Below, piece after piece: positions 17,495 through 41,016 of a DNA stretch of 44,157 nt; position 1 is the stretch's first letter; each line of letters starts with the position of its first letter. The notes under the pieces were generated by a model. That model worked only from the letters and a program-made list of their open reading frames with translations. It made no database searches and was not told where the DNA came from. The position numbers and the translations under genes were made by a program. Origin of the DNA: Candidatus Gastranaerophilales bacterium (GTDB lineage Bacteria > Cyanobacteriota > Vampirovibrionia > Gastranaerophilales > Gastranaerophilaceae); the NCBI GenBank assembly GCA_944325655.1, contig CALVAW010000015.1, forward strand, positions 1 to 44,157, given 5' to 3'.

Positions 17495-18064
17495 TTATTT
17501 TATATTTCTTTTACCAAGAGCAATTGTAAATAAATCACGTGCAAATTCACCTTTTGAATCTTTTAATCCGTATAAAATTCTGCCGCAGGCTGTATCTGTT
17601 GTTCTTATATTTTGATTATCCGAATAATATTCTTTAATATTTACGCTAAGATCACAATCAGTGTCAAGATAAAAAGCGGCGACTATGTTTGGAGTAAACA
17701 TAGCACATTGAGCATCCGTGAGATAATCTTTTGTTTGAGTTGAGTTATTTGTTAAATCGCTACAAGGCGTTTCTTCGCCATCTAAATATTTTAAAAAGTA
17801 ATCTCTTAAATCTTGTGAGTTAATTTCTTTGTCATTATTTTTATCCAGCAGACCCGTAATGGATCCGTTTGACGTATTATCGTATAAAATTCTTATGTAT
17901 GTATTTTCTACATTTGAGTAAAAATTTTGACTTAGGGATTGAATTTTTTTCTCTTTGGCTTGATCAAGATTTGAGGTAGAAAGTACCGTAATAACTATCA
18001 TTAAGGCTAAAACAACCAATACAATAAGTGTTTCTGTAAGTGTAAAAGCTTCTAATTTTTTCAT
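17495..18064 (-). CDS. Type IV prepilin-like protein with an EF-hand-like loop
   Basis: 189 aa from the ATG complementary to 18062-18064 (a TTG at 18076 would add four residues). MKKLEA precedes the pilin helix FTLTETLIVLVVLALMIVI, with Glu at +5. Cleavage would be Ala-Phe rather than Gly-Phe. The secreted part has LDKNNDKEINSQDL, which fits a calcium-binding EF-hand loop (D-x-N-x-D...D), and several Cys that could form disulfides. It lacks the FDxN...PNxxGxDQ tail of the three plus-strand prepilins nearby. Transcribed alone, divergent from them. Confidence 0.85.
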   Translation of the reverse strand: MKKLEAFTLTETLIVLVVLALMIVITVLSTSNLDQAKEKKIQSLSQNFYSNVENTYIRILYDNTSNGSITGLLDKNNDKEINSQDLRDYFLKYLDGEETPCSDLTNNSTQTKDYLTDAQCAMFTPNIVAAFYLDTDCDLSVNIKEYYSDNQNIRTTDTACGRILYGLKDSKGEFARDLFTIALGKRNIK

Positions 18065-18178
18065 ATATTTATCCAATATTTTCTTATCTAATAATACATT
18101 TTTTTTAAAAATATTACAAAAAAATCATATATAAATAGTAGTTATTTAATTTTATAATTAAATTTTTATAATACATAT

Positions 18179-18184
18179 TATAAT
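18179..18184 (+). promoter_or_regulatory. -10 element of the prepilin operon
   Basis: TATAAT seven bases before the ATG at 18192; predicted start at about 18191, giving a leaderless mRNA. No Shine-Dalgarno sequence is present. The intergenic region to the divergent prepilin gene is AT-rich. Confidence 0.5.
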
Positions 18185-18191
18185 ATATTTT

Positions 18192-18827
18192 ATGAAGTTT
18201 AGTGATAAAAAGACGGCTTTTACATTTGCGGAAGCAATGATTGTTATGTCAATATTGGGTATTTTAATTGTACTATCTGTATCTGCAATAAAGTTGTATA
18301 ACCCTGCGGAAAAAGGCTATGAAACTATGTCGGTAAAAATGGCTGAAAATATTGAAGCTGCAACACTTCATATTCTTTTAAATAATTCGGTTTATGATGA
18401 TTTTTTGAGAATAAAGGATAAGGAAGGCTATTTTTCTATTGAAGATAAAGATATTACAAAAAGAATGTCTGATTTGTATTCAAATTATCTGTCAGATATT
18501 ACTTATGGCATAGATTTATCAACGGAATATTTTTCAAATGAGATTTTAGATTATGACAGAACTTCTGTCGGCGAGAAATTAAAAGATACATATTCTGATT
18601 TTTTCTATGTGGCAGACGGTACCCTTGTGGGATTTAGGTTTTATAACAGTTGTAAAGCAGCTGAAAAAAATGCAAATCCTCCCCATAGCAAAGGAAGATA
18701 TTCTGTAGATGAGGTGTGCGGTTCTGTATTTTTTGATGTCAATTCTTTTAAGGAACCTAATAAGTTAGGGTCTGATCAATATATTTTGCCTATTTACAAA
18801 AGAGGAATTAAATATGATAATGAATAA
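18192..18827 (+). CDS. Type IV prepilin-like protein 1 of 3
   Basis: 211 aa. Short leader MKFSDKKTA, then FTFAEAMIVMSILGILIVL, the class III signal helix with Glu at +5 and Ala at -1. The globular part is mostly acidic, and the C-terminus has the motif FFDVN...EPNKLGSDQY shared with the next two genes. It would be processed by a prepilin peptidase and assembled into a pilus or type II secretion pseudopilus. First gene of a three-gene operon; it precedes the next gene's real start by 19 nt. Confidence 0.87.
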   Translation: MKFSDKKTAFTFAEAMIVMSILGILIVLSVSAIKLYNPAEKGYETMSVKMAENIEAATLHILLNNSVYDDFLRIKDKEGYFSIEDKDITKRMSDLYSNYLSDITYGIDLSTEYFSNEILDYDRTSVGEKLKDTYSDFFYVADGTLVGFRFYNSCKAAEKNANPPHSKGRYSVDEVCGSVFFDVNSFKEPNKLGSDQYILPIYKRGIKYDNE

Positions 18828-18846
18828 TAAGAAGGAGTTAATAAAT

Positions 18847-19422
18847 ATGAGAATTAAAAAAGCTTTTACAATGGCTGAGGCTATACTTGTAATGACAATC
18901 CTCGGTATCATTGCAACTATTATGATTACAACCTTGAAGCCTGCTGAATATAAGGATAAAGGTCTTGCTATTATGGCAAGAAAGGTATTATCCGAAATTG
19001 ATACTGCAACGACACAGATTTTAATTAATAATTCTGCTTCAGGGAATACTTCTTCTTTGTATGAACCGGGTACTGCAAATTTATTTTCATTGGAAAATTC
19101 AGGCATGGATGATAAAATTGGCAAACTGTATAAAAGATATTTAACCGTTACAAGACAAGAATGTAATGATGCAAATTGTCCTTGTAATGATTATACAAAT
19201 AAATTTTATTTAAAAGATGGTGCTTGTATGGGTATAACAACAGGTACACAAGCGTCGGATGTCAATACTTGGTTCCCCGGAGAAACAAACTTTACAAGTA
19301 TGAAGCCCACGCATGGTATAATTTTCTTTGATACCAATGGGGAAGGTGAACCTAATGTTATGGGCAAAGACCAATTCTTGTTGCCTGTGGGTTCTGAAGG
19401 CGTGCAATATGCAACAGATTAA
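18847..19422 (+). CDS. Type IV prepilin-like protein 2 of 3
   Basis: 191 aa from the ATG at 18847, chosen because AAGAAGGAG lies eight bases upstream and because it gives a normal short leader (MRIKKA). A longer in-frame start at 18814 overlaps the previous gene. The pilin helix FTMAEAILVMTILGIIATI has Glu at +5 and Ala at -1. It has a Cys cluster (ECNDANCPCND) and the tail IIFFDTN...EPNVMGKDQF. Likely exported and disulfide-bonded. Confidence 0.87.
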   Translation: MRIKKAFTMAEAILVMTILGIIATIMITTLKPAEYKDKGLAIMARKVLSEIDTATTQILINNSASGNTSSLYEPGTANLFSLENSGMDDKIGKLYKRYLTVTRQECNDANCPCNDYTNKFYLKDGACMGITTGTQASDVNTWFPGETNFTSMKPTHGIIFFDTNGEGEPNVMGKDQFLLPVGSEGVQYATD

Positions 19423-19442
19423 TCTCGTTAAGGAATAAGAGA

Positions 19443-20057
19443 TTGAATTTTAAGTTAGCTTATACTCTTGTTGAAACTATAGTGGTAATGACCGTCGTGG
19501 CTGCTATATGCATAGTGATGGTTGTAGTGCTGCGTCCTAAGGATGTTAAAAAAGAAGTTTTACAAAAAGCGGGCAGTAATATATTATACCAATTGGATTT
19601 TGCGTCAAAACAAATATTGGCAAAAAATACGGTAAATTACAGTCTTAAATATTTAAAAGCGGATGATGGCAGTGAATTTGATATAACATCAGATGATGCA
19701 GAGCAAAAACTCATAAGTATATATAAAAAATATTTAAAGGGTTTGAATAAAAAATCTTTAAGTTCTGAATATTTATCAAAAGTTTTAGTTGATGAAAATA
19801 ATATGGCTTTAACGGGCATTAGTGCAAATAGTTTTAATTATGGATTTTTTTTGAATAACAATGCGTATATAGCAATAAAATTGAATAAAAATTGTACAAC
19901 TCATGAAACTTATATATATAGTCCCATCCAAATTCAAAAAAGGGAAAGAAACAACAGTTGCGGTTTGTTTTTTTTCGATGTTAACGGAGATATGCTTCCT
20001 AACAAACTGGGAGTCGACCAATATATTGTTTCAATAGGAGAGATGGGAATAAAATAA
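19443..20057 (+). CDS. Type IV prepilin-like protein 3 of 3
   Basis: 204 aa from TTG 19443 with AAGGA eight bases upstream. The leader MNFKLA precedes YTLVETIVVMTVVAAICIV; the residue after cleavage is Tyr, not Phe, which is unusual. Glu at +5 is kept. The tail has LFFFDVNGDMLPNKLGVDQY. Last gene of the prepilin operon. A GCAAAA/TTTTGC palindrome at about 20077-20090 may end the transcript weakly. Confidence 0.85.
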   Translation: MNFKLAYTLVETIVVMTVVAAICIVMVVVLRPKDVKKEVLQKAGSNILYQLDFASKQILAKNTVNYSLKYLKADDGSEFDITSDDAEQKLISIYKKYLKGLNKKSLSSEYLSKVLVDENNMALTGISANSFNYGFFLNNNAYIAIKLNKNCTTHETYIYSPIQIQKRERNNSCGLFFFDVNGDMLPNKLGVDQYIVSIGEMGIK

Positions 20058-26244: not shown

Positions 26245-27360
26245 GTGTTAAATGTAAAAAATGATTTGTTTTTGAATAGCGTTGGAGATTTAATAAGTGC
26301 TACTTCAGTTAATCACGAACACACTATTTTAATAGTTGATGATGAAATAAATAATTTACAGCTTTTAAAGAGAACCCTTCGAGGTAAATATAATGTTTTA
26401 ACCGCTTCAAATGGGCTTGAGGGTCTTGAGATTTTAAAAAGAAATATAAATGATATTTCTTTAATAGTTTCAGATCATAAAATGCCAATAATGGAAGGAA
26501 CTAAATTTCTTGAAGAAGCTAATGATATTGCACCAGATGTAATAAAAATTCTTTTAACGGGATTTTCTGATATCGAAATTTTAACTGATGCTGTAAATAA
26601 ATGTAATTTGTTTCAATATATTTTAAAACCTTTTGATCCTGATGAGCTGAAGGAAGTTGTAAAAAACGGATTGGATAAATTTGATCTTGCAAGTTCGAAA
26701 TCAATGATTTTAAAGGATTTAAAGGAATTATTTTATAAAACAATAAAATCTATTGCTTCTGCTCTTGATGCAAAAGACCCGTATACACATGGTCATTCTA
26801 TGCGTGTTACTTTATATTCTATAATTCTTGCAAAGGAATTAAATGTACCTGATGATCAACTTGAATTAATAGAAACAGCCGGTTTGTTGCATGATATCGG
26901 TAAAATTGCAATTCCTCAAGCTATTTTGTGTAAACCGGGAAAACTTACAGATACTGAATTTGTTGTTATGAAATCTCATCCTTCAAATTCTGAAAAGCTA
27001 ATAGCAAGTATTAAAAAGCTTCATGAGGTTTCTCCGGGGGTTAAACATCATCATGAAAGATGGGATGGAAGAGGATACCCTGATGGCTTAAAAGGAGAAG
27101 AAATACCTTTTGCTGCAAGAGTTATAGCTCTTGCGGATACTTATGATGCGATGACATCAACTCGTTCATATAGGGTTGCGCTTTCACATGAAACTGCAAT
27201 TAATGAGATAGAAAAATGTGCAGGAAGTCAATTTGATCCGCAATTGGCAAGAAAATTTGTTGAAATACAAGATATTATAAAGGCTGCAAAAGAAAATCCC
27301 GAAGAATATTATCTAAAATATTCAACTTTATATAAAGAGATTAATGTAGGGCATGATTAA
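26245..27360 (+). CDS. Response regulator with HD-GYP c-di-GMP phosphodiesterase domain
   Basis: 371 aa. A receiver domain (about 27-145) has ILIVDDE, phospho-acceptor D77 in IVSDHKMP, T105 and K128. An HD-GYP domain (about 160-350) has GHSMRVT, HDIGK (216-220), KSHP, HHHERWDGRGYPDGL (GYP intact) and LADTYDAMTS. The output should hydrolyse c-di-GMP under control of phosphorylation. No cognate kinase is adjacent. GTG start with AGAGGAT about seven bases upstream; a GCTGTA/TACGGC hairpin (26211-26227) precedes it. The stop region overlaps the convergent PHP gene by 20 nt. Confidence 0.93.
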   Translation: MLNVKNDLFLNSVGDLISATSVNHEHTILIVDDEINNLQLLKRTLRGKYNVLTASNGLEGLEILKRNINDISLIVSDHKMPIMEGTKFLEEANDIAPDVIKILLTGFSDIEILTDAVNKCNLFQYILKPFDPDELKEVVKNGLDKFDLASSKSMILKDLKELFYKTIKSIASALDAKDPYTHGHSMRVTLYSIILAKELNVPDDQLELIETAGLLHDIGKIAIPQAILCKPGKLTDTEFVVMKSHPSNSEKLIASIKKLHEVSPGVKHHHERWDGRGYPDGLKGEEIPFAARVIALADTYDAMTSTRSYRVALSHETAINEIEKCAGSQFDPQLARKFVEIQDIIKAAKENPEEYYLKYSTLYKEINVGHD

Positions 27361-28804: not shown

Positions 28805-29560
28805 ATGGTAAATACAAAAAATTTGCTTAAAATAAGTTTTGAATTTTATAAAAAATATATAAAAGAATATTTGTTAATGTTAATAAAACCTATATTAGTC
28901 GGGGTATTGGGTATTATTTTAATGCCTTTAATGTTTATTAATCCTGTTTTTGCGCTTTTAACCATTTTTATTACTTTGCCTTGCATTTTTTATTCTTTTT
29001 GGCGCGGTATTATGATAACTTATACATTAAATTATGCTGCGCATGGTATGTATAAAAAAAGTACTTACCATAGTTTAAAAGAGCTTTTTATTTTGACTAA
29101 AAAAAATGAAAAAGAACTTGCTTTATGGATAACTTATATTGCCATATTGTCGATTATAGGCTATATTCCGGCATTTATTTTATCATTTTTATTTTTGCCT
29201 GTGAATTTTGTCGATTTTTTGAATTTTCCGTCAGGAACAATGAGTTTTTTGCAAGAACTTTTATCGGCAAAGATTATGGTCATTTATGTTATTAATACCC
29301 TTATTTTAATACCTTTTTTAAATTATTCTCAACAAGCTTTTTATTTTAAAAAACCCGAAGAGAAATTTTTTAATTTAATCGTGAATTGTTATAAAAGAAT
29401 AAATCTGCAGGGTTATTTAATTGCCTTGTTTGTTGTTTTGGCGGGATTTGTTTTAACTTCAAATTCTCTTTTGATATTTTTGGTGTTATTTTTCAATGTA
29501 TTTATATACGGATTAAATATGTTTTGGTGGGAAAGTGGGAATAATTTGTCTCAATCATAG
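28805..29560 (+). CDS. Polytopic membrane protein B, function unknown
   Basis: 251 aa from the ATG at 28805, chosen because GAAAGGAAA lies just upstream (an in-frame TTG is at 28790). About six membrane segments, including the double segment IKPILVGVLGIILMPLMF. Same size and layout as its upstream neighbour, with a similar start (LLKISFEFYKKYIKEY) and a C-terminal membrane segment. Its last ten bases overlap the end of the convergent GGDEF gene. Confidence 0.75.
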   Translation: MVNTKNLLKISFEFYKKYIKEYLLMLIKPILVGVLGIILMPLMFINPVFALLTIFITLPCIFYSFWRGIMITYTLNYAAHGMYKKSTYHSLKELFILTKKNEKELALWITYIAILSIIGYIPAFILSFLFLPVNFVDFLNFPSGTMSFLQELLSAKIMVIYVINTLILIPFLNYSQQAFYFKKPEEKFFNLIVNCYKRINLQGYLIALFVVLAGFVLTSNSLLIFLVLFFNVFIYGLNMFWWESGNNLSQS

Positions 29561-30933
29561 ATAACAACTTTATTTCTTCCTGTTTCTTTTGCTTTGTAGA
29601 GGGCTTCATCGGCTTTTTGATACAATATGTGAGGGTCTTTATCATTTTTATTGTACTCGCTTACCCCTATTGAAATTGTAACGGAAATTTCTTTAACATC
29701 TTTAATATTATATTCTTCTATATTGATTTTTTTCTTTTCAACTTGTTTTCTTAATCTTTCTGCCACAATTATTGCTTCATCAAGTTTGGTATGAGGAAGC
29801 AGGAATATAAATTCTTCTCCGCCATATCTTGAGGCTATATCTTCTTCTCTTAATTCTTTTTTGATTGTTTTTGCTATAGTCTTTAAAACACAATCTCCAA
29901 CTGCGTGTCCGTATGTGTCATTTACTTTTTTGAAAAAATCAATATCGGACATAATGCAACATAGCGGTTGATTTTGTCTTTTTGCGGCTGCTGTTGTTTC
30001 TTTTAATCTTTTTTCGAATTGATGTCTGTTGTTATAACCTGTTAGAGCATCAAGCGTTGCATATTCCAATACTTCTACGTATGATTTTGCTCTGGATAGT
30101 GTAATTTGTGCTTGTTGTTTGATTTCTTCCAGATATTCTATTTCTTTTTTTGTTATTTTGTCAAAATGATTGTATGCAACTATTGCCCCATAAGCTTTTG
30201 AATCAACTATAAGAGGAAAAATCCCCATTTTTCCGTCTTGTTTAATAATTGTTTGAGATTTTGGCGTAATTTCTTCTAAATATTCATATATTTTGTTGTC
30301 GGAACAGTTTTTTGGCCATATTAGTTTATATTCTTTTTTGTTTTTATTTTTTATAAAAATATAAATTAAATGTTCTGAGATAAATTGGTCTATCATTTCG
30401 CCCATAATAGGCAGTATATAATCTAATTCATATTGGGTTTCGGTTATTTTTGCAATGTTTCTTACGGTTTGATGAAATTTGGAGCTTATTTTTATCATTT
30501 CTTTATTTTTTAACGTAGCCGTAAGCATTGATATTTGGGCTATAACAAGAGGTAAAATTTCAAAAAAATTGTTTTTGGGGTTAATTTTCTCACAGGATTT
30601 TAATTTAACTATTCCTAAGGTCTTATTTTTTTGACATATAGGAAAATATAGCGTATTTTCGTCTATTTCGTATGTGCTTTTTTGTATTAAAAAATTATCG
30701 AATTGTTTTTTAATTTTTAAATTTTCTTCACTGTGTGCAAGGTTTTCCCAAGGTTTTGTAAAATCTTTTAAAAGAAAAGAATATTCATCCATCATATAGA
30801 TTTTTAATTCATCTATTGTAAAAAAAAGCCTCAGGGCTTTAGAAAAGTTTTCCAAAAGATCATTTCTGTCTTTTGCTTCTTCAAAAGATTTAACTAAAGT
30901 GTATGAAAAATTATAGAGAATTTCTGATTCCAT
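29551..30933 (-). CDS. GAF-like sensor diguanylate cyclase (GGDEF)
   Basis: 460 aa. A C-terminal GGDEF domain (about 290-460) starts with DALTGYNNRHQFE and has DIDFFKKVNDTYGH (metal and GTP contacts) and an intact GGEEF active site. RxxD lies five residues before it (REED-IASRY-GGEEF), the allosteric c-di-GMP inhibitory I-site. The N-terminal 280 residues look like one or two divergent GAF domains with a linking helix, giving cytoplasmic sensing; there is no membrane segment. Its start follows directly on the stop of the TPR gene upstream (TAGATG), so they are coupled. Confidence 0.93.
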   Translation of the reverse strand: MESEILYNFSYTLVKSFEEAKDRNDLLENFSKALRLFFTIDELKIYMMDEYSFLLKDFTKPWENLAHSEENLKIKKQFDNFLIQKSTYEIDENTLYFPICQKNKTLGIVKLKSCEKINPKNNFFEILPLVIAQISMLTATLKNKEMIKISSKFHQTVRNIAKITETQYELDYILPIMGEMIDQFISEHLIYIFIKNKNKKEYKLIWPKNCSDNKIYEYLEEITPKSQTIIKQDGKMGIFPLIVDSKAYGAIVAYNHFDKITKKEIEYLEEIKQQAQITLSRAKSYVEVLEYATLDALTGYNNRHQFEKRLKETTAAAKRQNQPLCCIMSDIDFFKKVNDTYGHAVGDCVLKTIAKTIKKELREEDIASRYGGEEFIFLLPHTKLDEAIIVAERLRKQVEKKKINIEEYNIKDVKEISVTISIGVSEYNKNDKDPHILYQKADEALYKAKETGRNKVVIYD

Positions 30934-38297: not shown

Positions 38298-38633
38298 TTA
38301 AGCAACCAAAAAGGAACGTTTTATTAATTCTCTTTTGTTATCAATAAAATCTTTTTCGCAAATAAATGATTTTAGGGAACCTTTTTTAATAATAAGAAAA
38401 AGATATAAAAGTACTTCACTGTTAAGATTAAATAATTTGAATTTATTTTTGAGCAGTGAAATAATAAATTTTTCAGAAGAAATTGACTTAACATTTTTCA
38501 TGTTGAGTCCTATTTTTTTACTTTTTTTTGTAAATTCTAATATTTTATTCGTTAAATTATCATCAATTTTGTTTTCATTGATAATTAAAACAATCTTGCC
38601 TTTGCAAATTGTTTTATTGATAGTATTTTTCAT
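38298..38633 (-). CDS. Small protein, possibly STAS-like
   Basis: 111 aa. KGKIVLIINENKIDDNLTNKI, KKIGLNMKNVKSISSEKFIISLL and the later FKLFNLNSEVLLYLFLIIKKG follow the strand-helix order of an anti-sigma-antagonist (STAS) domain, but the usual DLS/DxS phosphorylation segment is replaced by KSISSE. GGAT lies before the ATG at 38633. The opposite strand is also open here, but its product has no recognisable pattern. It lies 27 nt upstream of the membrane glycosyltransferase gene. The family call is tentative. Confidence 0.6.
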   Translation of the reverse strand: MKNTINKTICKGKIVLIINENKIDDNLTNKILEFTKKSKKIGLNMKNVKSISSEKFIISLLKNKFKLFNLNSEVLLYLFLIIKKGSLKSFICEKDFIDNKRELIKRSFLVA

Positions 38634-38759
38634 AAGTCATCCGGTCTTTTACCTTATATCTTAAGCTTTTTCAAATTAAATGTTAATTATTACAAAGAAT
38701 GATATTGTTATAACTTTTGTTTGATAAAAAAACATGATAGTATAGTTTTAAGAAAGATT

Positions 38760-38765
38760 TATAAT
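38760..38765 (+). promoter_or_regulatory. -10 element predicting a leaderless PAS-kinase-like mRNA
   Basis: TATAAT ends six bases before the ATG at 38772, so +1 is predicted at the A of the start codon. No Shine-Dalgarno sequence is present. Confidence 0.55.
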
Positions 38766-38771
38766 AAATAA

Positions 38772-39899
38772 ATGAAGATACTAGAATATTTTAAAAGCCA
38801 AAAAGAAGATAATAATTTTAATTTATTGCCTGACGGTATTTTTACTTTGGAACAAGACGGTAGGGTAATCGATGTTAACGATAAGGTCTTGGAGATTTAT
38901 AAAACAACACGTTTTAATGTTTTGGGACGTTATTTTTCTGATTTTGTAGAAAACGGCACCGAGATTTTAAATAAAATAGTTAAAGATGGCTCTTCTGAGC
39001 TTGTCAGGGCTTCTATGAAAGGAAAAGATGCTCCCTTGCTTTATTTGGAAATAACGGCAAAAAGAAATGCGGATTCAAATAAAGTTTATGTTGTTGCAAG
39101 AAATGCCACAGAAAGACAAAGCGAATATAAAACAATTAAAGGGCAATTTTCTGTTGTGCAAAAGATAATTGATGAAAAAAATGATTTTCTTTTGGATTCA
39201 TCCGGAGTCATCTTGTCAAACCTTGTTTCTATAAGTGGTTTTTCACGTGCGCTTTTGGATGGTATTGGAGGTGCTTTATCGGAAAAACAGCAAAAATATT
39301 TAAACATAATTAATATTAATGCAAGAGATTTGAATTATGATTTAGAAAAGTTGTTTACTCTTTTTAAACTTGAATCAAAGAAAATTGAATACCAAAATAA
39401 ACCTTTTGATTTAATTAGTCTTTTAAAATCAATTAACAGGGTTTACGAGAAAGATTTTAGAGACAGAAAAATTATTTTTTCCATGGATTATTCTTCCTTA
39501 ACGGAAAGAGATTGTTATTTGGATAGCGAGGTTGTTGAATATATGCTTCGCTCTATTATGGACATTTTTTTCAGATTTGCAAATTTAGGTAAATGTTATT
39601 TGAATATTGGTCATCCTCCTATGGATTTTCTCAAAACAAGAGAATTTGCTGCCAATGATTTTTTTGATACAAAAAAATATGTATTATTTGAAGCTAAGAT
39701 AGCTGATTTGGTATTTAGTAAAGATGAATTAGATAATATTTTTGATACTTATTACAAAGGTGCAACTAAACGTCCTATAGGGTTGAGAGCTTCTTTAAAT
39801 TTATTAAAAATTTATATTACAGATTTAAAAGGTGATATTTGGGTATATTCAAAAGAAAATTTTGGTACAATGTTTACATTTGTACTGCCTTTGAGGTAG
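38772..39899 (+). CDS. PAS-domain pseudo-histidine kinase
   Basis: 375 aa. A PAS domain (about 18-115; LLPDGIFTLEQDGRVIDVND, ARNATERQ) precedes a region that aligns with HisKA and HATPase_c of sensor kinases. At the dimerisation helix, FLLDSSGVILSNLVSISGF replaces FLAxxSHELRTPLxxIxGF, so the phospho-acceptor His is Gly145. The N-box reads MLRSIMDIFFRF instead of the NLLxNAxKF pattern. DxGxG is absent, and GLGL reads GLRAS. The GTMFTFVLP end is kept. The fold is likely preserved without ATP binding or phosphotransfer. The gene precedes an ABC ATPase gene by 22 nt. Confidence 0.85.
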   Translation: MKILEYFKSQKEDNNFNLLPDGIFTLEQDGRVIDVNDKVLEIYKTTRFNVLGRYFSDFVENGTEILNKIVKDGSSELVRASMKGKDAPLLYLEITAKRNADSNKVYVVARNATERQSEYKTIKGQFSVVQKIIDEKNDFLLDSSGVILSNLVSISGFSRALLDGIGGALSEKQQKYLNIININARDLNYDLEKLFTLFKLESKKIEYQNKPFDLISLLKSINRVYEKDFRDRKIIFSMDYSSLTERDCYLDSEVVEYMLRSIMDIFFRFANLGKCYLNIGHPPMDFLKTREFAANDFFDTKKYVLFEAKIADLVFSKDELDNIFDTYYKGATKRPIGLRASLNLLKIYITDLKGDIWVYSKENFGTMFTFVLPLR

Positions 39900-39921: not shown

Positions 39922-41016
39922 ATGGCAGGAGTAGTTTTAGAAAATATTTCAAAAAGTTTCGGCAAAAAAGAAATATTGAAAAATATAAATTTGGAAATAA
40001 ATGACGGAGAATTTATTGTTTTAGTCGGTGCTTCGGGTTGCGGTAAATCTACTTTATTAAGGATGATAGCAGGTCTTGAAACACCAAGTTCCGGTAATAT
40101 ATTTATAGATGATAAATTGGTAAATAATGTTGCGCCAAAAGATAGAGATATAGCCATGGTTTTTCAAAATTACGCCTTATATCCTCATCTTTCGGTAAAA
40201 GATAATATTGCTTTAGGTTTAAAAGTCAGAAATGTTGCCAAGTGTGAAATTCAAAGAAGAGTTAGCAGGGCTGTTGAAATTTTGAAATTAGAAGATTATA
40301 TAAATTCTAAGCCGAAAGAGCTATCAGGCGGACAAAGGCAGCGTGTTGCTCTGGCAAGAGCAATAGTCAGAGAACCTAAAGTTTTTTTAATGGATGAACC
40401 GTTATCGAATCTTGACGCTAAATTAAGAAGTGAAATGCGCTCAGAGATTAAAAAACTGCATAAAAAACTTAAAACAACATTTATATATGTTACTCATGAC
40501 CAAACAGAAGCTTTGACTATGGGCGATAGAATTGTTGTTTTAAATAACGGTGAAATTCAACAAACAGATACCCCCGGCAATATATATAATTATCCTCAAA
40601 ATGTTTTTGTTGCGACATTTATGGGCGCAAATCCGATGAATATTGCAAAAGCGGAGATTAAAAATGAAATATTGGTTATGGGTAATGTTTCATTAAGCTT
40701 AAGTTCTTTGCCTGTTGTAATTAAAAATAAAAGCGATATATTGGTGGGCGTTCGTCCTGAAAATATAGTCCCTGAAGGCAGTCCTTTATATCCTTTTAAT
40801 TTAATTAAATTTGAAGCAAAAATTATATTTGAAGAAAATTTGGGCGCACATAAAAATGTATATTTTAAAGTTGGTGAAAGTGAATTTTGTGCAATTGTGG
40901 ATTCTCAAATATCGTTATCTCAATCAGTTAAATTTTCAATAAATCCAAGAGATTTATATTTCTTTGATGTTGATACAAAAGAACCTTTGTATAGAATCGT
41001 TAATTTTAGTATTTAG
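39922..41016 (+). CDS. ABC transporter ATP-binding protein (UgpC/MalK/MsmX-type)
   Basis: 364 aa from the ATG at 39922. Walker A GASGCGKST (36-44), Q-loop QNYALYPHLSV, signature LSGGQRQRVALARA (134-147), Walker B FLMDEP (155-160) and H-loop YVTHDQTEALTM. A C-terminal TOBE/OB region (about 240-360) has VGVRPENIV. It is typical of sugar importers. No permease or binding-protein gene is nearby, so it may energise several sugar importers, as MsmX does. AGAG precedes the start. It overlaps the convergent leuA-type gene by four bases. Confidence 0.92.
   Translation: MAGVVLENISKSFGKKEILKNINLEINDGEFIVLVGASGCGKSTLLRMIAGLETPSSGNIFIDDKLVNNVAPKDRDIAMVFQNYALYPHLSVKDNIALGLKVRNVAKCEIQRRVSRAVEILKLEDYINSKPKELSGGQRQRVALARAIVREPKVFLMDEPLSNLDAKLRSEMRSEIKKLHKKLKTTFIYVTHDQTEALTMGDRIVVLNNGEIQQTDTPGNIYNYPQNVFVATFMGANPMNIAKAEIKNEILVMGNVSLSLSSLPVVIKNKSDILVGVRPENIVPEGSPLYPFNLIKFEAKIIFEENLGAHKNVYFKVGESEFCAIVDSQISLSQSVKFSINPRDLYFFDVDTKEPLYRIVNFSI

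Follow-up and report, generated by a model that had tools for sequence, protein, structure and literature searches.

A PAS-linked pseudo-histidine-kinase of Gastranaerophilales bacteria, encoded beside the gene of a shared sugar-importer ATPase

The gene at 38772..39899 on the + strand of the window, by which we mean the whole stretch of 44,157 nucleotides analysed here from a 1.69-Mb Candidatus Gastranaerophilales genome, encodes a PAS-DHp-CA pseudo-histidine-kinase of 375 residues, assigned from profile matches and an AlphaFold2 model, and although its catalytic motifs are gone the gene is under strong purifying selection. Pseudo-histidine-kinases are already known from a few model cases, namely DivL, RetS, NifL and RocA, and what is new here is an order-wide graded series, total motif loss under strong selection and an invariant pairing with the gene of a sugar ATPase; neither the gene nor this pairing was found in the openly available literature searched. 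It is possible, though we would stop short of calling it probable, that a kinase was stripped stepwise of catalysis and recruited as a direct PAS-gated regulator of a shared ABC ATPase, and if this is true, a dead kinase would exert post-translational control over sugar uptake.

Fold and catalytic motifs of the window protein

The open reading frame comprises 375 codons and has no internal stops, and the segments SISGF, ALLDG and GTMFTFVLPL, in which the initial annotation had recognised a histidine-kinase scaffold, are all found in its product. Pfam returns PAS_9 (7e-9), HATPase_c (1e-4, below cut-off) and HisKA (0.012, sub-threshold), and in NCBIfam the kinase models ArcB (9e-16) and PnpS (4.5e-15) align with it over long stretches. 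The AlphaFold2 model, built from a 33-sequence alignment and having a pLDDT of 88.9, consists of a PAS domain, two long DHp helices and a CA-like alpha/beta domain, and thus returns the architecture expected from that scaffold. The top VIA match among solved structures is RetS (Z 21.1, rmsd 2.5, 212 residues), although this closeness may partly stem from a common degenerate ATP site, and DivL comes third behind two RetS entries (Z 19.6). Many active kinases rank after RetS and DivL, Z being 16-21 to many kinases, and the Foldseek matches include NifL (9qq6). The window protein is therefore predicted to have the DHp and CA fold of a sensor histidine kinase (HisKA/HATPase_c).

The PAS domain covers residues about 14-112 (38811..39107, + strand), as judged from the PAS_9 match and the strands of the model, in which it extends over residues 21-111. 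Read directly, its residues include no His and no Cys, so that neither a flavin adduct of LOV type nor a heme with a His ligand is likely in this copy. It is followed by a DHp-like two-helix hairpin (39108..39374, + strand), the helices of which span residues 113-162 and 171-201 according to the alignments and AlphaFold2, and by a CA (GHKL)-like domain (39399..39896, + strand) in which the alignments reveal no N-box Asn, no DxGxG and no GxGxG. Compared with intact orthologues, the phospho-acceptor His of the H-box is replaced by Gly145 (39204-39206, + strand), the N-box Asn by Ile265 and DxGxG by Ile310/Asp312/Val314, while the sole Gly remaining of GxGxG is 337. The lid stretch from F-box to G2 has furthermore 14 residues where an intact orthologue of family group f4 has 17. 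The alignment thereby bears out what had been claimed from the window alone, that is the loss of the His, the N-box and DxGxG and the degradation of GLGL. From these substitutions we would conclude that the protein cannot bind ATP in the canonical manner and cannot autophosphorylate.

The gene was found in all 28 genomes examined of the window's genus (g1), with 59-84% identity to the window copy, and all four motifs are missing from every one of them, the loss being thus consistent among orthologues. The phospho-acceptor His is kept in none of the 28 and in 5 of 91 rows in the order as a whole. A loss specific to the window copy was considered and is ruled out, since the remaining 42 rows of the family group to which the genus belongs (f1) all lack the G2-box glycines as well.

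Orthologues across the order and selection on the gene

The 91 rows were scored for the His, the N-box Asn, DxG and GxG, and orthologues were inspected singly in 48 genera, which fall into six family groups. In f4 (2 rows, two genera) all four motifs are kept and the kinase is apparently complete; in f2, f3 and f7 (15 rows) the His alone is lost; in f6 (4 rows) both the His and GxG (the G2-box) are lost; and in f1 beyond the window's genus (42 rows) GxG is retained in 0/42, with the His and the N-box Asn usually missing. One gene can in other words be followed from an apparently intact kinase in f4, by way of f2, f3 and f7, where only the His has gone, to the loss of everything in f1, most extreme in the window's genus, and this series lets the steps from kinase to scaffold be compared within a single gene.

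In the tree f2-f7 form one group separate from f1, and its unrooted topology calls for at least four changes of the His and two of the N-box Asn. That the ancestor was active is the simplest view and a likely one, given that two f4 orthologues keep complete motifs. The His is present in 3 of the 42 f1 rows outside the genus, namely L175 (g26), L169 (g30) and L168 (g31), in all of which the N-box and the G2-box are lost; it was either retained or regained and is possibly phosphorylated in trans, and regain in g26, g30 and g31 may have occurred, the unrooted tree giving no direction.

In f2 and f4, as well as in one genus of f7, the kinase gene adjoins rsmI; in f7 and f1 it adjoins ugpC. Since the gene order rsmI - kinase - ugpC of f7 links the window gene to the intact genes of f4, the two are positional orthologues. 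A match in 286/286 genomes was rejected as a measure of presence, because other kinases also match at that threshold; in the 286-genome search no stand-alone orthologue was found in G148, G171, G173, G203, G289, G292 and G038, and for genus g44 (G171 and G173, 98-99% complete) the absence appears real. Outside the order, all matches at a limit of E 1e-50 lie in larger ORFs of 533 aa and more, and there is no stand-alone equivalent of ~380 aa among them.

Between near relatives the pseudokinase gene has dN/dS values of 0.02-0.12, as low as those of the adjoining ATPase gene in the same genomes. When eight pairs are pooled, the values by domain are 0.125 for PAS, 0.060 for DHp and 0.061 for CA, and the catalytically dead CA domain is therefore still under selection. 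The most constrained stretch, residues 156-190 (GFSRALLDGIGGALSEKQQKY..., 39237..39341, + strand), runs from the last part of DHp helix 1 through the loop into the first part of helix 2; here the pooled value for the eight pairs is 0.037 and 57% of the positions are invariant in the 28 genomes. Furthermore, K172, Q173, K175 and Y176 are unchanged in 33 order-wide sequences, and the conserved hairpin end is common to the intact f4 kinases. The absence of the catalytic motifs might in principle reflect a kinase gene that is decaying recently into a pseudogene, but the frame is intact in every genus member examined, the dN/dS values are low, and the loss is common to the whole genus and, in part, to most of the order, so that ongoing decay is extremely improbable and can be set aside, in agreement with the earlier claim that the loss is not one of simple decay.

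The paired ATPase gene and possible modes of action

The downstream gene (39922..41016, + strand) encodes a UgpC/MsmX-type (CUT1) ABC importer ATPase, which matches NCBIfam NF008653 (UgpC subfamily) with E 3.4e-132 and 440.8 bits against a curated cut-off of 432, and in which Walker A, LSGGQ and Walker B are intact. Its ATG at 39922 begins 22 nt past the pseudokinase stop, exactly the spacing initially given. The window genome has no other close CUT1-type ATPase, and elsewhere in it two CUT1 permease pairs are found without an ATPase of their own, so that the earlier description of this ATPase as an orphan is well founded; one CUT1 ATPase together with two permease pairs devoid of one is indeed how multitask ATPases of the MsmX kind are arranged. 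MsmX and MsmK are described as orphan multitask sugar ATPases (PMC7658222), and a lone orphan CUT1 ATPase for several permease pairs is what the window genome shares with MsmX, MsmK and UgpC, whereas a pseudokinase operon mate does not figure in the passages on MsmX consulted (PMC7658222).

The link between the two genes is far stronger than had been claimed from one locus. In all of the 72 f1 and f7 loci with enough context, representing 36 genera (34 of f1 and 2 of f7), the gene is followed directly, on its own strand, by one of UgpC/MsmX type, while the upstream neighbour of the pseudokinase gene changes from genus to genus. The two genes overlap in 23 of 45 loci outside the genus, and many of these overlaps are an 8-nt stop/start, ATGAGTAA. 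That stop and start overlap in roughly every second locus outside the genus would also fit a protein that merely stabilises or chaperones the ATPase, or a gene that acts only on expression through translational coupling, with no signalling involved. A conserved PAS domain and 375 residues under strong selection exceed the needs of a leader cistron, however, and orthologues without UgpC linkage exist, which makes either of these roles quite improbable.

Where the ATPase was found in f2, f3, f4 and f6, it is encoded away from the kinase orthologue. Genus g44 presents a separate situation, in that UgpC is kept at L187 and L189 and the pseudokinase was not found, a frame of ~490 aa or longer resembling DNA polymerase III alpha being located upstream of UgpC; the genus thus offers a natural knock-out with which others can be compared. 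When linked and unlinked genomes are set side by side, no distinctive conservation is seen in the UgpC regulatory domain, the ratio of its identity to that of the NBD being 0.57-0.67 in linked and 0.55 in unlinked genomes, and a co-evolution signal in this domain did not emerge.

Since the protein appears unable to phosphorylate and is yet kept intact, it presumably works by binding, and since the downstream gene is invariant and often overlapping, the ATPase is the first candidate partner. The reading to which we lean, although it falls somewhat short of an even chance, is that of a non-catalytic, PAS-gated dimer that binds a partner, most likely the coupled ATPase, in a manner resembling NifL. 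A cytosolic pseudo-histidine-kinase gated by its PAS domain and maintained for binding would in f1 be co-produced, and we infer co-translated, with the shared sugar-importer ATPase from a two-gene operon, the 8-nt overlap often providing translational coupling. The PAS domain would sense an intracellular signal, the nature of which is conjectural, and the ensuing change would run along the DHp helices, such that the DHp/CA body of a putative dimer would hold or free UgpC through a presumed direct contact. The amount of free UgpC would thereby be set, and with it the power available to the two permease pairs, the sign of the effect being as conjectural as the signal. The invariant pair with a shared sugar ATPase thus provides a concrete candidate partner, and it suggests a new control of sugar import in uncultured gut bacteria. 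Against the ATPase model count the orthologues in f2, f3, f4 and f6 that have no adjoining UgpC, according to which ATPase control is not the sole possible role, the retention of UgpC in g44 without a detectable pseudokinase, and the lack of distinctive conservation in the UgpC regulatory domain; nor is operon membership by itself proof of contact.

Response regulators dock on true kinases at the DHp hairpin end. As the constrained part of the window protein is this very docking part, an alternative fits as well, namely that the protein, in the way of DivL or RetS, uses the hairpin to bind a response regulator or to form a heterodimer with an active kinase, coupling or inhibiting a two-component pathway through its most constrained part, with the ATPase being merely co-regulated. 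This we consider a possibility to be taken seriously, if a rather doubtful one. RetS and DivL are the closest solved structures, the genome has 20 response-regulator (receiver-domain) matches and 14 other HATPase matches over the cut-off, and precedents exist in RetS, an inhibitor of GacS whose HATPase is degenerate and lacks G-boxes (PMC5992135), and in DivL, which senses DivK~P (PMC4211667). On the other hand, no adjoining response regulator or kinase was recognised in the lineages examined while the ATPase is always present in f1 and f7, and the RetS phosphatase motif HExxT is missing from the window protein. An adaptor, in which the hairpin would read a phosphorylated response regulator or another signal protein and the output would fall on UgpC, leading from two-component signalling to sugar import, has the merit of joining the conserved docking hairpin with the invariant gene pair, but it requires two interactions that are both hypothetical, and we regard it as unlikely.

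The likeness to NifL on which the ATPase model draws begins with gene order. In their common operon nifL immediately precedes nifA, just as the window gene and its orthologues immediately precede an ATPase gene in all 72 loci of f1 and f7. NifL differs in having two PAS domains. Like the window protein, it combines PAS with a histidine-kinase-like DHp/GHKL body without phosphotransfer, and it blocks NifA in a 2:2 complex via the ATPase domain of the latter, which is AAA+ (PMC12998174). NifL inhibition depends on nucleotide status (PMC12998174), however, whereas the ATP motifs of the window protein are gone, and its neighbour and candidate target is an ABC importer subunit of UgpC/MsmX type and not an AAA+ protein; for these two reasons the window protein is not filed as NifL.

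DivL likewise has PAS and a histidine-kinase core in which the phospho-acceptor His is replaced (Tyr550), but it keeps the H-box (with Tyr for His), N, G1, F and G2 boxes (PMC4211667), whereas all boxes are lost in the window's genus; the orthologues of f2, f3 and f7 do fit the DivL pattern. DivL also differs in that it has several PAS domains and that the response regulator with which it partners is known. The shared feature of RetS is the HATPase degeneracy already mentioned, but RetS, a hybrid kinase, is larger and carries both REC domains and HExxT, and the window protein is short and has neither. Finally, RocA is a histidine-kinase homologue and a pseudokinase that acts by interaction (PMC7028121), and to this extent it is similar, although it resides in the membrane and acts on CovS, and no link to an ABC ATPase is known for it.

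Upstream region and other features of the window

A promoter-like element, ACTTTTGTTT-N10-CATGATAGTAT (38713..38743, + strand), is conserved in the genus with fixed spacing; its genus form is ACTTTTGTTT-N10-CATGrTArtAT, it lies between two divergent genes, and a perfect copy occurs once in the genome. Taken as an extended -10 promoter, it would imply a short leader, some 20 nt in length. The TATAAT motif at 38760, which had suggested a leaderless start, is by comparison not conserved in relatives, and such a start was rejected as unsupported. The initial annotation's picture of a PAS-linked scaffold accordingly stands as regards the histidine-kinase fold, the loss of all motifs, the PAS domain and the absence of decay, but not as regards a leaderless transcript.

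The divergent gene (38298..38633, - strand) encodes a 111-aa protein of STAS fold, as judged from an AlphaFold2 model (pLDDT 87.4) with VIA Z scores of 9-11 to STAS proteins such as SpoIIAA, and Pfam and PDB sequence searches with it gave no convincing matches. The STAS-like gene adjoins that of the pseudokinase throughout genus g1 and also in g37 and g45. Because STAS proteins elsewhere bind GHKL proteins (SpoIIAB), a link between the STAS protein and the pseudokinase is by analogy conceivable.

Among genes read from sequence elsewhere in the window, a response regulator whose output domain is HD-GYP-like (26245-27360, + strand) and a GGDEF-like protein (29551-30933, - strand) are indicative of signalling of cyclic-di-GMP type in the same window. 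A cluster at 17495-20057 is likewise read as encoding four short proteins, one on the - and three on the + strand, whose N-termini resemble those of type IV pilins.
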